From assembly GCA_002722055.1 (NCBI GenBank), contig PBKD01000007.1:1-64000 (forward strand): a stretch of 64,000 nucleotides of DNA, read 5' to 3'. The notes beneath the pieces were generated by a model that was not told where the DNA came from, searched no databases, and worked only from the letters and a program-made list of their open reading frames with translations. How positions within the stretch are numbered: position 1 is the first letter of the stretch; every line of letters starts with the position of its first letter. The position numbers were made by a program, and so were the translations under genes. This document shows positions 44,492 to 63,121 of the stretch, piece after piece. The stretch is from Rhodospirillaceae bacterium (GTDB lineage Bacteria; Pseudomonadota; Alphaproteobacteria; SHVP01).

Positions 44492-44620
44492 AATTTTTAT
44501 CCAGTTATCTAATATTAAACTCTATATTAGCTTAAAAATAAACTCTTAATATTTTTAAAACTTACCACAATTATTGCAATATAATCTTAAATAGTAATAC
44601 AATATATTAACTAGATATCT

Positions 44621-44624
44621 GGAG
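44621..44624 (+). promoter_or_regulatory. Ribosome binding site for an apparent ATT start
   Basis: GGAG is followed by seven bases and then ATT 44632. No ATG, GTG or TTG lies between the in-frame stop TAA (44608-44610) and the cluster-binding cysteines. The spacing favours ATT as the initiator. Confidence 0.5.
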
Positions 44625-44631
44625 AAATAAT

Positions 44632-46686
44632 ATTCTTAAAGAAAAGCTATTTTCTACTTGTCCTCATGACTGTCCAAGTCAATGTGCTGTCGAGGTAGAA
44701 AGAATTAATAATCAACTCATTGGTAGGGTTAGTGGATCTAAAGTTCAAAAATACACTCAAGGTGTGATTTGTGCCAAAGTTGCCAGATATTCTGAAAGAG
44801 TACATCATGAAGAGAGACTAAAAACTCCTCTAATTCAGATGGGTGAGAAAGGTGATGATAATTTTGTTCCTATTTCATGGGAAAATGCTCTAGGAGAAAT
44901 TGCCGAGAGGTTCATAAAGGATGCATCATCATATGGCGCAGAGTCAGTCTGGCCGTATTATTACGGTGGAACTATGGGATACTTTCAAAGAGATGGGATC
45001 AATAGATTACGTCATATAATGAAGTATTCAGGAATGGATAAAACAATTTGTGCGTCAATTGTTCAGTCTGGTTGGACAGCTGGTGTTGGGGCTTCCATTG
45101 GCACTTCTCCATATGAAATGTCAGAGTCAGATCTAATCATTTTATGGGGTACAAATGCTGTTTCTACCCAAGTAAATGTCATGCATCACATTTCAAAAGC
45201 TCGAAAAAAAAGAGGAGCAAGATTAATTGTTATTGATCCCTATGAAAATCAAAGTGCAATTGTTGCAGATCAATATCTGTGTATTAATCCAGGCACTGAT
45301 GGTGCCTTAGCACTTACAATTATGAATGTACTATTGAGGGAAAATAAAATAGATAGGAATTTTTTACTCGAATTTACAGATTATAATGATGAAGTAGAAA
45401 AAATAATTTCTCAAAAGAACTTAACGTGGGGTGAGCAAATTACAGGTATTCCAGCTAGAGAAATTGAAAAACTTGCTATAGAGTATGCAGAAACTGAAAG
45501 AGCCTTTATAAGGCTTGGGTATGGTTTTTCAAGGCATAGGAATGGAGCGGCAGCAGTTCATAGTGTTTCTTGTCTTCCTTCAATCACTGGTAAGTGGCTT
45601 AAAAATGGGGGAGGAGCGCTTTTAAGTAATTATGATATATATCATCTAGATAGAACTTTAATTGAGGGTTTAAAAGAGCGTGATAAAAAAATTAGAAATC
45701 TAGATATGTCTCAAATTGGAAGAATTCTAAATAATTTTAATTTGGAATTAAAAAATGGTCCCCCGGTCAAATCGATGTTAATTCAAAATACGAACCCAAT
45801 GGTTGTGGCGCCTGAACATAATTTAGTCAGGTCGGGTTTTTCAAGAAAAGACTTATTTGTGTGTGTTCATGATCAGTTTTTAACTGAGACTGCAAAATTA
45901 GCCAATATTGTTTTACCTGCAACAACATTTTTTGAGCATGATGACTTTTATGTAGGTGGAGGACATTCATATCTTCAATTTGGACCCAAAATAATTGAGC
46001 CCATTGCAGAGTCAAAGAGCAATCATGAAGTAATATGTGAGCTTGGAAATTTATTATCACCTGGTCACCCAGGTTTTCAAATGTCACTTGAAAAATTAAT
46101 TGAAGAAACTCTATTAATATCTGGTTATCCAACCTTAAGTGAATTTAAAAAATTAAAATGGGTAAATTGTCAGCCGCAGAAGAAGATTTCTAATTTTGAT
46201 TCTGGTTTTTTTACCAAGGATAAGAAGTTTCATTTTCAACCTAACTGGAGAGATATTGGTCCGACTGGTAATTTAATGAACAACTACCCTGATCACCTAG
46301 ATATTATTGATAGAATTACTAAAGATTTTCCATTCAAATTAGTTACAGCTCCTGCTAGAAGTTTTTTAAATTCAACATTTACAGAAATAAAATCTTCAAG
46401 AAATAGAGAAGAAAAGCCTCGAGTATTAATCCACCCTCTAGCTGCTAAAAGATATAATATCATAGATGGTCAAATCATTAAAATTGGAAATAAAAGAGGA
46501 GAAGTTGTCATCCACTCTAAATTTTTTGATGGACTTAAAGAAAATGTTTTAGTAGTGGAGAGTTTATGGCCCAATGAATATTTCATAAGTGGCAAGGGAA
46601 TTAATGTATTAACAAGTGCAGATCCGGTTCCTCCAAATGGAGGAGCAGCTTTTCATGATACATCTGTTTGGATAAAACCTATTTAA
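44632..46686 (+). CDS. Molybdopterin oxidoreductase (DMSO reductase superfamily), probable ATT start
   Basis: The frame extended upstream gives 684 residues. The N-terminal 4Fe-4S motif C10-x3-C14-x3-C18-x28-C47 (CPHDCPSQC then GVICAK) is lost if translation begins at GTG 44764. Further marks are ISWENALGEI, LIILWGTNAVSTQVN, LIVIDPYENQSAIVAD, NPGTDGALAL and a C-terminal molydop-binding domain (LIHPLAAKRYNI). It would transfer oxygen or hydride at a bis-MGD molybdenum centre. The substrate is unknown, and no Fe-S or membrane-anchor subunit is adjacent. No twin-arginine signal is visible, so it is likely cytoplasmic. It splits the lipid A block from the cysQ/pmbA genes and overlaps the convergent cysQ-like gene by eight bases. 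Confidence 0.85.
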   Translation: MLKEKLFSTCPHDCPSQCAVEVERINNQLIGRVSGSKVQKYTQGVICAKVARYSERVHHEERLKTPLIQMGEKGDDNFVPISWENALGEIAERFIKDASSYGAESVWPYYYGGTMGYFQRDGINRLRHIMKYSGMDKTICASIVQSGWTAGVGASIGTSPYEMSESDLIILWGTNAVSTQVNVMHHISKARKKRGARLIVIDPYENQSAIVADQYLCINPGTDGALALTIMNVLLRENKIDRNFLLEFTDYNDEVEKIISQKNLTWGEQITGIPAREIEKLAIEYAETERAFIRLGYGFSRHRNGAAAVHSVSCLPSITGKWLKNGGGALLSNYDIYHLDRTLIEGLKERDKKIRNLDMSQIGRILNNFNLELKNGPPVKSMLIQNTNPMVVAPEHNLVRSGFSRKDLFVCVHDQFLTETAKLANIVLPATTFFEHDDFYVGGGHSYLQFGPKIIEPIAESKSNHEVICELGNLLSPGHPGFQMSLEKLIEETLLISGYPTLSEFKKLKWVNCQPQKKISNFDSGFFTKDKKFHFQPNWRDIGPTGNLMNNYPDHLDIIDRITKDFPFKLVTAPARSFLNSTFTEIKSSRNREEKPRVLIHPLAAKRYNIIDGQIIKIGNKRGEVVIHSKFFDGLKENVLVVESLWPNEYFISGKGINVLTSADPVPPNGGAAFHDTSVWIKPI

Positions 46687-51162: not shown

Positions 51163-52095
51163 TTAGTTACCAATAAGAAAACATAAGAAAATTGCAAAAC
51201 CAAAAGTACTGTTTGATTTAAATTTTTTTAAACAGTCATTACTAAGTTTAGGTTTTAGTGTGATTATTTGCCAAGCTAGATGTGATGAGGATAGCAAAAA
51301 AATAGGCCAAAAAAACCATTTTACCCCAACAGTTATTGAACAGTAAGAAAGTAAAAGAAATGTGAATGAATAAAAAATAGAGAGAAATATTTTCAAATTT
51401 TTCTCTCCTATATATATCGCAGATGATTTAATTCCAACCAGCTTATCGTCATTTATGTCCATCAAAGCATAAATTGTGTCATATCCTAAAGTCCAAAAGA
51501 TTCCTGCTAAGTAGATAATAATACAGATATGAGAAATTTGATTATTAATCTCCACCCAAGCTAAAATTACTCCAAAATTAAAAGCTAGACCTAAAAAAAT
51601 TTGAGGCCACCATGTTATTCTTTTCATGAAAGGGTATATTGCAACAAGTAATAATGAAAATAATCCAATAAAAATAGTAAGAAAATTAAATTGAATTAAT
51701 ATTGAGAAGCCAATGAGGCTTTGAAAAACTAACCAAATTGAGGCCTTAAATATTGTTATTTCTCCAGATGGTAGAGGTCTATTGGATGTTCTTTTGACTT
51801 TTGAGTCTAATTTCATATCAATTAAATCATTAAAAGTACAACCAGCTCCTCTCATTGCTATGGAGCCAAGAAAAAAATATAAATATAAAAGAATCTCTTT
51901 AGTCTCATTTTCTAATGATAGTGAAATGCTTATGCTCCACCAAGCTGGTAACATTAAAAGCCAAATACCAATAGGTCGGTCAAATCGAGATAGTTTGATA
52001 TAAGGAATAATTCCATCAGGAAGGTAGTCAATAATTATATTAAATGAGCTATCAGCTAGTTTTTTGCTATTCAAATCTTTTTTTTTATTACTCAT
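51163..52095 (-). CDS. ubiA: 4-hydroxybenzoate polyprenyltransferase
   Basis: The 310-residue membrane prenyltransferase has about eight spans, the first Asp-rich motif NDLIDMKLDSKVKRT and the second DINDDKLVGIKS. RFDRPIGIWLLMLPAWWS at the N-terminus is diagnostic of UbiA. It attaches the polyprenyl chain to 4-hydroxybenzoate in ubiquinone synthesis. ATG 52095 (MSNKKKDL) is preferred; a longer frame would run back across the start of the divergent rsmE. Only 16 bp separate the two start codons, so promoters must lie within the neighbouring coding regions. Confidence 0.92.
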   Translation of the reverse strand: MSNKKKDLNSKKLADSSFNIIIDYLPDGIIPYIKLSRFDRPIGIWLLMLPAWWSISISLSLENETKEILLYLYFFLGSIAMRGAGCTFNDLIDMKLDSKVKRTSNRPLPSGEITIFKASIWLVFQSLIGFSILIQFNFLTIFIGLFSLLLVAIYPFMKRITWWPQIFLGLAFNFGVILAWVEINNQISHICIIIYLAGIFWTLGYDTIYALMDINDDKLVGIKSSAIYIGEKNLKIFLSIFYSFTFLLLSYCSITVGVKWFFWPIFLLSSSHLAWQIITLKPKLSNDCLKKFKSNSTFGFAIFLCFLIGN

Positions 52096-52111
52096 TGTAA
52101 TAATCTTATTT

Positions 52112-52828
52112 ATGGCTTTTTCAAAAAATATCAGACTTTTTACTGAACAGGATATTTTGCAAAATGTAAATATCAATTTAGTTGACCGAAATATAAATTA
52201 TCTAAAAAATGTGATGCGATGTAAAGACGGTGATTACATTAGATTGTTTAATGGCAGAGACGGAGAGTGGTTATGCGAGTTAATGGATATACAAAGCAGG
52301 CCTTTTGTTGTTCCTCGTAAAATTTTTTTATCTCAAAATTCTCAAAAAAAAGATAGTATTTGGGTAATATTTTCTTTAATCAAAAGCTCAAGGTCAAAAA
52401 TTTTAATCGAAAAAGCAACAGAGTTAGGTGCCTCAAAAATTATTGCTATTAAAGCTGCTAGATCAAATGTAAAATCAATTAATTTATCCAAAGCAACACT
52501 AACTTCTATTGAATCAGCAGAACAATGTGGTAGAATAACTGTACCTCAATTAAAATATTATAATTCGTTCGGTTCCCTTTTTCAAAAGTGGCCTAGTGGG
52601 AGGTCATTTATTTGGGGAGATAAAAATTCTAATTATACAGATTCCAAAATATTTATAAATATTGGTGGTTTGATAATTGGTCCTGAGGGTGGTTTTGTGG
52701 AAGAGGAGATTAAATTGTTTCAAAGTTTTTCTAAATCTCAATCATTTTCGTTAGGTGAGTTGACACTACGATCAGAAACTGCAGCTGTAGTAATGATATC
52801 AATATGGAAATTAATAAATAAATTATAA
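52112..52828 (+). CDS. rsmE: 16S rRNA (uracil-1498-N3)-methyltransferase RsmE
   Basis: The 238-residue SPOUT-class methyltransferase starts MAFSKNIRLF at ATG 52112. An N-terminal PUA-like part has HYLKNVMR-type NYLKNVMRCKDGD, and the C-terminal knot has LIGPEGGFVEEEI and LGELTLRSETAAV, the SAM-binding signature. It modifies U1498 of 16S rRNA. A longer frame starting upstream would add a hydrophobic leader unlike the family and overlap ubiA. It is followed 23 bp later by gshA, an arrangement common in alphaproteobacteria. Confidence 0.92.
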   Translation: MAFSKNIRLFTEQDILQNVNINLVDRNINYLKNVMRCKDGDYIRLFNGRDGEWLCELMDIQSRPFVVPRKIFLSQNSQKKDSIWVIFSLIKSSRSKILIEKATELGASKIIAIKAARSNVKSINLSKATLTSIESAEQCGRITVPQLKYYNSFGSLFQKWPSGRSFIWGDKNSNYTDSKIFINIGGLIIGPEGGFVEEEIKLFQSFSKSQSFSLGELTLRSETAAVVMISIWKLINKL

Positions 52829-61731: not shown

Positions 61732-62925
61732 CTAAATACTATTCTTAAAGTGTTTTGAGAGTTTTAAATTTTGAGCTTGATAATTTGAATTAAGTTTTTC
61801 TGATCCATAACTTTTGTCAGGATTTTCGGTAAGTCTTTCATATATTATTCTACAAACTATTTGTCCATCTTCTAAAGTGAAAGGTAGCTCATAGGATCGA
61901 ACTTCTAATACAGCTTTTGATCCTTTTCCTCCAAGTGAGTGGTGGCCAAAGCCAGGATCAAAAAAGCCAGCATAATGTACTCTAAACTCTCCATGCAAAG
62001 GGTTAAATGCCGCCATTTCAGCCGCGTAATCAGGAGGGACAGTTACTGCCTCTTTAGAAACCAATATATAAAATGCATATGGGTCAAGAATTAAATTTTT
62101 ATTATTATTTACATAAATTTTTTCCCAAAAATTTTCAAGGTTGTATTCATTAACTTTATCTAGATCGATTAATGAAGTGTATTTTTTTGCTTTGTAACCT
62201 ATTATTGTATTGGTATTTTCGCCTGAAAGATCAACAGAAATTGGCACTCCATTTTTAATTCTCTTAGCAAATTCTTTGTCTGTGTATTTACTTTCAACAA
62301 GTTTTACCTTTTCATGAAGTCTCCTTGTTGCAGTATCATTAGGTCTTGGTGTGCCTCTTCTTAAACGCATCTGTAATAATTTAGTGCCTTTTGAAACAAT
62401 TACGCTAAATGTTCTAGGGCTAATTTCTGCATATAAAAAACCCTTATAACCCTCATTAATTCTATCAAACTCAACACCTTTGTCAGTAATCAATCTTGTA
62501 AAAACATCTACTCTTCCAATAGAACTCTTTGGGTTAGCAATCCCAGAAACTCTACTTGGTAGAACAACGCTTTCTTGAAGAGGCACAATATATACAGCTC
62601 CTCTTTCAAGCACATTGCCGCCCAATAAATCAATTTTGTGCATTCCTAATGTATCGATTTTTTGCATTACTGTAAAACTTTCACCTGGAAGGAAACTAGC
62701 TCTGACTCTATAAGCGTACCGGCTAAGTCGGAGGTCAATACTTGCAGGTTGAATTTGACTTTCTTCTATTTGGTCATCAAGTGAAAAAATAACTTTTTCG
62801 TTTATTAGATCTCTAAGCGTTTGAGATGGGAGAACACCAGTAGGGAATATGCCTGAATTACTTAAATCTTTATCCTCTAGGTTTTTATCTTTAAAGAGAT
62901 GATTATCTTTTGTAATTTTTTCCAT
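61732..62925 (-). CDS. dcd: Double-domain 2'-deoxycytidine 5'-triphosphate deaminase
   Basis: From ATG 62925 the protein has 397 residues, about twice the length of the common Dcd. Two dUTPase-fold halves are visible. The N-half has GVLPSQTLRDLI, QIQPASIDLRLSRYAYRV and GIANPKSSIGRVDVFTR; the C-half has AAEMAAFNPLHGEFRVHYAGFFDPGFG and EVRSYELPFTLEDGQIVC. Such tandem proteins are the alphaproteobacterial version. It makes dUTP from dCTP for thymidylate synthesis. The C-half carries the clearer DPGF-type motif; which half is active is not certain. ATG 62949 would add eight residues. Confidence 0.87.
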   Translation of the reverse strand: MEKITKDNHLFKDKNLEDKDLSNSGIFPTGVLPSQTLRDLINEKVIFSLDDQIEESQIQPASIDLRLSRYAYRVRASFLPGESFTVMQKIDTLGMHKIDLLGGNVLERGAVYIVPLQESVVLPSRVSGIANPKSSIGRVDVFTRLITDKGVEFDRINEGYKGFLYAEISPRTFSVIVSKGTKLLQMRLRRGTPRPNDTATRRLHEKVKLVESKYTDKEFAKRIKNGVPISVDLSGENTNTIIGYKAKKYTSLIDLDKVNEYNLENFWEKIYVNNNKNLILDPYAFYILVSKEAVTVPPDYAAEMAAFNPLHGEFRVHYAGFFDPGFGHHSLGGKGSKAVLEVRSYELPFTLEDGQIVCRIIYERLTENPDKSYGSEKLNSNYQAQNLKLSKHFKNSI

Positions 62926-63121
62926 ATTATATTTGAGATTCCTGTGCATAATGAGAGTAATATATCGTATAAAATAAACTAAAAAAAAATCTAATTTATA
63001 TTTAAAAATATGCCTAGAATAATAGCAAATTTTTTGATAAATGTTTACATAGATCCTTAAATAGATACATATAATTAGTTATTTATGCAATTTTAGCAGA
63101 TTTTTTTGGGGTATTTCAATA

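Follow-up and report, generated by a model that had tools for sequence, protein, structure and literature searches.

Where does translation of a molybdopterin oxidoreductase gene begin when no ATG, GTG or TTG lies ahead of the first three of its 4Fe-4S cysteines? This question is raised by a forward-strand gene at 44632-46686 of a 64,000-nucleotide stretch of DNA (the whole stretch analysed, hereafter the window), taken from a 2.16-Mb assembly of 15 contigs; the source group consists of uncultured ocean bacteria. A preliminary description had proposed that the gene starts at an ATT codon. In this study, we put the probability at about 0.85 that translation of the gene starts at AUU 44632 with a predicted low output, and that this AUU was fixed and kept in the genus.

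Start region and gene product

The frame is open from the in-frame TAA at 44608-44610 to the stop ending at 46686, and it contains no ATG, GTG or TTG until the GTG at 44764-44766, which is codon 45 counting from the ATT at 44632-44634. Seven codons (CTA GAT ATC TGG AGA AAT AAT) separate the TAA from the ATT. They include the Shine-Dalgarno (SD) sequence GGAG (44621-44624), which is four bases only in the window and stands seven bases 5' of the ATT, so that an AUH codon lies at a normal SD distance, as in AUH-start genes. The codons of the 4Fe-4S cysteines C10, C14 and C18 (44659-44685) are 5' of GTG 44764, and the fourth cysteine, C47, is just 3' of it. On recheck of the sequence, the frame, coordinates, codons, GGAG spacing, lack of a standard start before GTG 44764 and upstream position of the three cysteines all agreed with the preliminary description.

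A possible promoter, TTGCAA - 18 - TACAAT, was seen on the forward strand at 44574-44603. It is weak (9/12 matches), mostly retained in G001 and retained with changes in G002, the two other genomes of the genus; the region held 4 promoter-like sites, compared with 2.2 (sd 1.3) in shuffles. No special RNA fold was found at the start in the three genus genomes (z-scores -0.87, -0.05 and 0.17). No tRNA genes were found in the window, and the 16S rRNA gene for a check of the anti-SD was not found in the source assembly, which is given as 99% complete.

The product translated from ATT has 684 residues and belongs to the molybdopterin oxidoreductases, as all three domains exceed their Pfam cut-offs: Fe4S4 (PF04879, 24.9 bits against 22.7), molybdopterin (PF00384, 154.1 against 24) and dinucleotide-binding (PF01568, 56.5 against 26.8). 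The Fe4S4 domain requires residues 8-59. Among the best 25 NCBIfam families listed, the product reached no cut-off, and for the formate dehydrogenase alpha equivalog (TIGR01591) it scored 257.3 bits against a cut-off of 666.25. The best solved structures by sequence were formate dehydrogenases and acetylene hydratase, and the product has the Fe4S4, molybdopterin and dinucleotide-binding domains in common with the formate dehydrogenase H (FdhH)/acetylene hydratase family. A Sec or Cys at the FdhH Sec position is a ligand of the molybdenum. FdhH has selenocysteine there, whereas the product has Val, in place of the Sec or Cys ligand of formate dehydrogenase alpha, and the 22 homologues have V (10), A (8), S (3) or T (1). 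The equivalent site falls within residues 141-150 of the product. Because of these residues, the family may have no protein ligand to molybdenum, as in arsenite oxidase, which has none.

The gene is alone on its strand; a putative msbA-like gene on one side points away from it, and a putative cysQ-like gene on the other side is convergent. The orthologue in genus g4, which belongs to the same family, adjoins the msbA-like gene in two genomes (L005, L006), with ATG starts, and the cysQ-like gene is nearby in one of the two.

The start in the genus and in other genera

The genus sample consisted of three genomes, namely the window's own, G001 and G002; G001 and the record of Alphaproteobacteria bacterium MarineAlpha2_Bin1, which a passage of PMC8879329 places in GTDB order GCA-2701885, were counted once. 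The gene was present in 9 of the 10 genomes searched of the family, and the protein identity to the window product was 85% in G001 and 77% in G002. One contig of G002 (C47, L102) was 94% identical to the window's genome and carried Ns. Since other long G002 matches were 72-77% identical, G002 may be a mixed bin; its molybdoenzyme gene is on C20, a contig of the diverged kind.

The sequence shows an open frame with its cysteines and an SD, and the start site is the same in the three species. In all three genomes, the TAA is followed by TGGAG, seven bases and ATT, the frame from TAA to ATT lacks ATG, GTG and TTG, and the conserved N-terminus has none of these codons ahead of it. At SD distance, no in-frame codon other than this ATT both differs from ATG by one base and is common to the three genomes, and the argument for ATT 44632 is drawn from this comparison of sequences. 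The 24 bases 5' of the ATT, a stretch too short for a codon-based judgement, were identical at 19 positions in G001 and at 17 in G002, the TAACTA and TGGAG blocks included.

The dN/dS ratio was calculated with a Nei-Gojobori script for three pairs of genus genomes. Codons 2-44 evolve as coding sequence, with values of 0.064, 0.116 and 0.123, while the whole gene gave 0.08-0.09 (0.089, 0.082 and 0.094).

Outside the genus, 19 loci with at least 45% identity were compared. All 19 had a standard start in frame after the upstream stop and before the first cysteine codon. An ATG or GTG was clearly placed in 17 of them, and L016 and L009 offered more than one choice, so that the starts in other genera are ATG, GTG or possibly TTG. 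Because standard starts were found at 19/19 loci of other genera and ATT in 3/3 genus genomes, the alignments indicate that the start changed to AUU on the branch to the genus and was then retained. A different start conserved in close relatives had been named as evidence against the ATT. The close relatives have the same ATT at the same spacing, and the standard starts are confined to other genera.

Survey of other genes and infC

To see how unusual this start is, open reading frames (ORFs) of at least 80 codons were compared with G001 and G002. The window supplied 56 of them, and four 20-kb stretches of the same genome, one of which was picked for infC and another for a paralogue, supplied the other 68. 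In 19 of the 124 ORFs, a script flagged at least eight aligned codons that are conserved and precede the first standard start. Thirteen of these have their standard start in common with a relative, and therefore the flagged similarity is a leader or an overlap. The other six comprise the molybdoenzyme gene, infC, a small membrane ORF, a gene whose in-frame stop is missing from relatives, and two ORFs that we regard as non-genes. When starts were assigned crudely, by taking the first one in each ORF, 22 of the 56 window ORFs, including the molybdoenzyme gene, had an SD-like match of at least four bases ahead of them. A search of viral contigs gave one pattern match and none confirmed.

The small membrane ORF (L088:4958-5284, G000:C14:384958-385284, forward strand) has 109 codons and no ATG, GTG or TTG before codon 73. 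Its codon is ATT in the window's genome versus ATG in G001, and G002 has TTG two codons earlier; we regard it as a candidate for a second non-standard start. The ORF at 52028-52825 was rejected in this role, as it is rsmE with an ATG at 52112 common to relatives. L089:19591-19887 was taken as a non-gene, with a stop in G001 and nothing but a near-identical copy in G002, and so was L090:200-478, with stops in G001 and none in G002. On the reverse strand, the putative methyltransferase-like gene L089:18145-19155 (G000:C15) has an in-frame stop near its start that is absent from G001 and G002, and may be a young pseudogene or contain a base error. In the window at 61735-63078 (reverse strand), about 40 leader codons 5' of the ATG are conserved, with 30 (G001) and 25 (G002) of 43 aligned codons kept. 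The relatives have stops in this leader despite its conservation, and it is perhaps regulatory.

The infC gene was found in all nine genomes searched (L041, L042, L043, L037-L040, L044 and L045). With the start position placed by eye and main copies counted (extra copies L046 and L047 left out), the codon was ATA in eight and ATC in one (G006). A gene finder restricted to ATG, GTG and TTG would truncate IF3. The context of infC in the genus is TAA TGGAGAAAGC(G/C)T ATA, which has the TGGAG and the seven-base spacing of the molybdoenzyme gene. Because the context is the same, it suggests that in such a setting the ribosomes of the genus already begin translation at an AUH codon; it does not show that IF3 controls the molybdoenzyme gene.

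Rival readings and comparison with known systems

A sequencing or assembly error that hides a standard start at 44632 would be one alternative, and the methyltransferase-like gene shows that a stop absent from relatives does occur in this assembly. Nevertheless, the same codon is found in three genomes although 43-64% of the gene's fourfold sites differ between them, and because three species agree on ATT, we consider a base error extremely unlikely. It is also very improbable that translation starts at GTG 44764 and yields an enzyme without its first three cysteines. This GTG is the first standard start in frame and is retained in G001, but it is ATA in G002, the stretch upstream of it evolves as coding sequence, and the upstream cysteines are present in 22/22 aligned homologues. 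It is very improbable, too, that translation begins at a different near-cognate codon or enters the frame by a shift from a start farther upstream. The AAG at codon 5 is common to the three genomes, and G001 has an out-of-frame ATG in its leader; however, AAG is a very poor start codon at a distance of 19 bases from the SD, and neither the window nor G002 has the ATG seen in G001. No start in the window leader could serve: the single ATG, GTG or TTG in any frame at 44540-44634 is TTG 44574, which is closed by a TAG six codons on, and therefore a frameshift from it cannot rescue the frame.

Another possibility, which we hold to be appreciable although below even odds, is that AUU is the start but has no regulatory meaning, being a slightly harmful change that was fixed by drift and partly offset by the SD. 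The genome is AT-rich (33% G+C). In addition, of the gene's 38 internal ATT codons, 15 are likewise ATT in all three genomes, so that the conservation of the start ATT needs no special selection, and its third base alone is no proof of selection for AUU. On the other hand, ATG is one base change away, synonymous sites have changed 0.9-1.8 times within the genus, and fourfold-site identity in the gene is 57, 36 and 41% in the three pairs; as these sites have diverged, there was ample time for a single reversion to ATG. A passage of PMC5622118 also reports that reconstruction finds selection towards AUG, with ancestral AUG changing to AUU at 1/61,358 and GUG to AUU at 1/5,080 in 36 genome triplets. 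Drift explains the data nearly as well as the purposeful reading.

We believe that the conserved AUU is a real and probably expression-lowering feature. In the mechanism that we propose for translation from AUU 44632, the SD would put this codon in the ribosomal P site, and the initiator tRNA would pair with it through a mismatch, hence residue 1 would be Met. Some of these complexes would be rejected by IF3, and the protein would be produced at a fraction of the rate expected from AUG. The genus would have inherited the AUU from its ancestor, in which it became fixed, and retained it as a low output of the enzyme was tolerated or favoured. By analogy with known AUU starts, we infer this effect on expression and a link with IF3, to which the AUA start of the genus infC in the same context lends indirect support. 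As the infC of these cells has an AUA start, an abundance of IF3 may also lower translation of the molybdoenzyme, which is the least certain step. Going further, we speculated that the genus has a small set of mRNAs with AUU or AUA starts (infC, the molybdoenzyme gene and perhaps the small membrane protein gene) whose translation would be tied by IF3 to the supply of ribosomes and to growth state. We regard this as doubtful; if true, a redox enzyme would be tuned by a translation factor.

The start also matters for annotation. Gene finders that accept only ATG, GTG and TTG would remove 44 residues from the molybdoenzyme, three 4Fe-4S cysteines among them, and the enzyme would therefore be misjudged. 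Set against its neighbours, the genus shows that a standard start gave way to AUU within one family; natural cases of this kind are rare and allow one to study why such starts persist. Among the matches listed in the open-access literature, no paper described an AUU start in a molybdoenzyme.

To our knowledge, well-supported AUU starts outside infC are few. In E. coli, infC itself has an AUU start, is autoregulated and encodes IF3. The E. coli infC (AUU) and the genus infC (AUA) have an AUH start after an SD, like the molybdoenzyme gene, but their product is IF3 itself, whereas the molybdoenzyme is an enzyme without a known link to translation. According to a passage of PMC1780047, the AUU start of E. 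coli pcnB lowers expression, and an AUU start of lepA has been proposed in two species. The pcnB gene is an ordinary gene with an AUU start, as here, but it encodes a poly(A) polymerase and belongs to another bacterial class.

Reporter studies bear on the expected output. In the cited part of PMC13068326, Listeria rsbW reporters ranked ATG > ATA > ATT with ATT barely detectable, and six conserved Listeria genes, including infC (ATT) and rnhC (ATC), have fixed non-standard starts. For S. aureus, an excerpt of PMC13009471 states that reporters with AUU and AUA starts reached about 10% of the AUG level in poor medium; in rich medium, ccpN (AUA) rose to 30%, whereas cvfC1 (AUU) showed no response to the medium. 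As described there, the starts of cvfC1 and ccpN are conserved in relatives and follow an SD, like that of the molybdoenzyme gene; however, these genes have extended SDs and measured starts, whereas the molybdoenzyme gene has an SD of four to five bases and a start read from the sequence only. AUU starts are thus a kind already known from infC, pcnB, cvfC1 and ccpN, and the molybdoenzyme gene adds to this kind.
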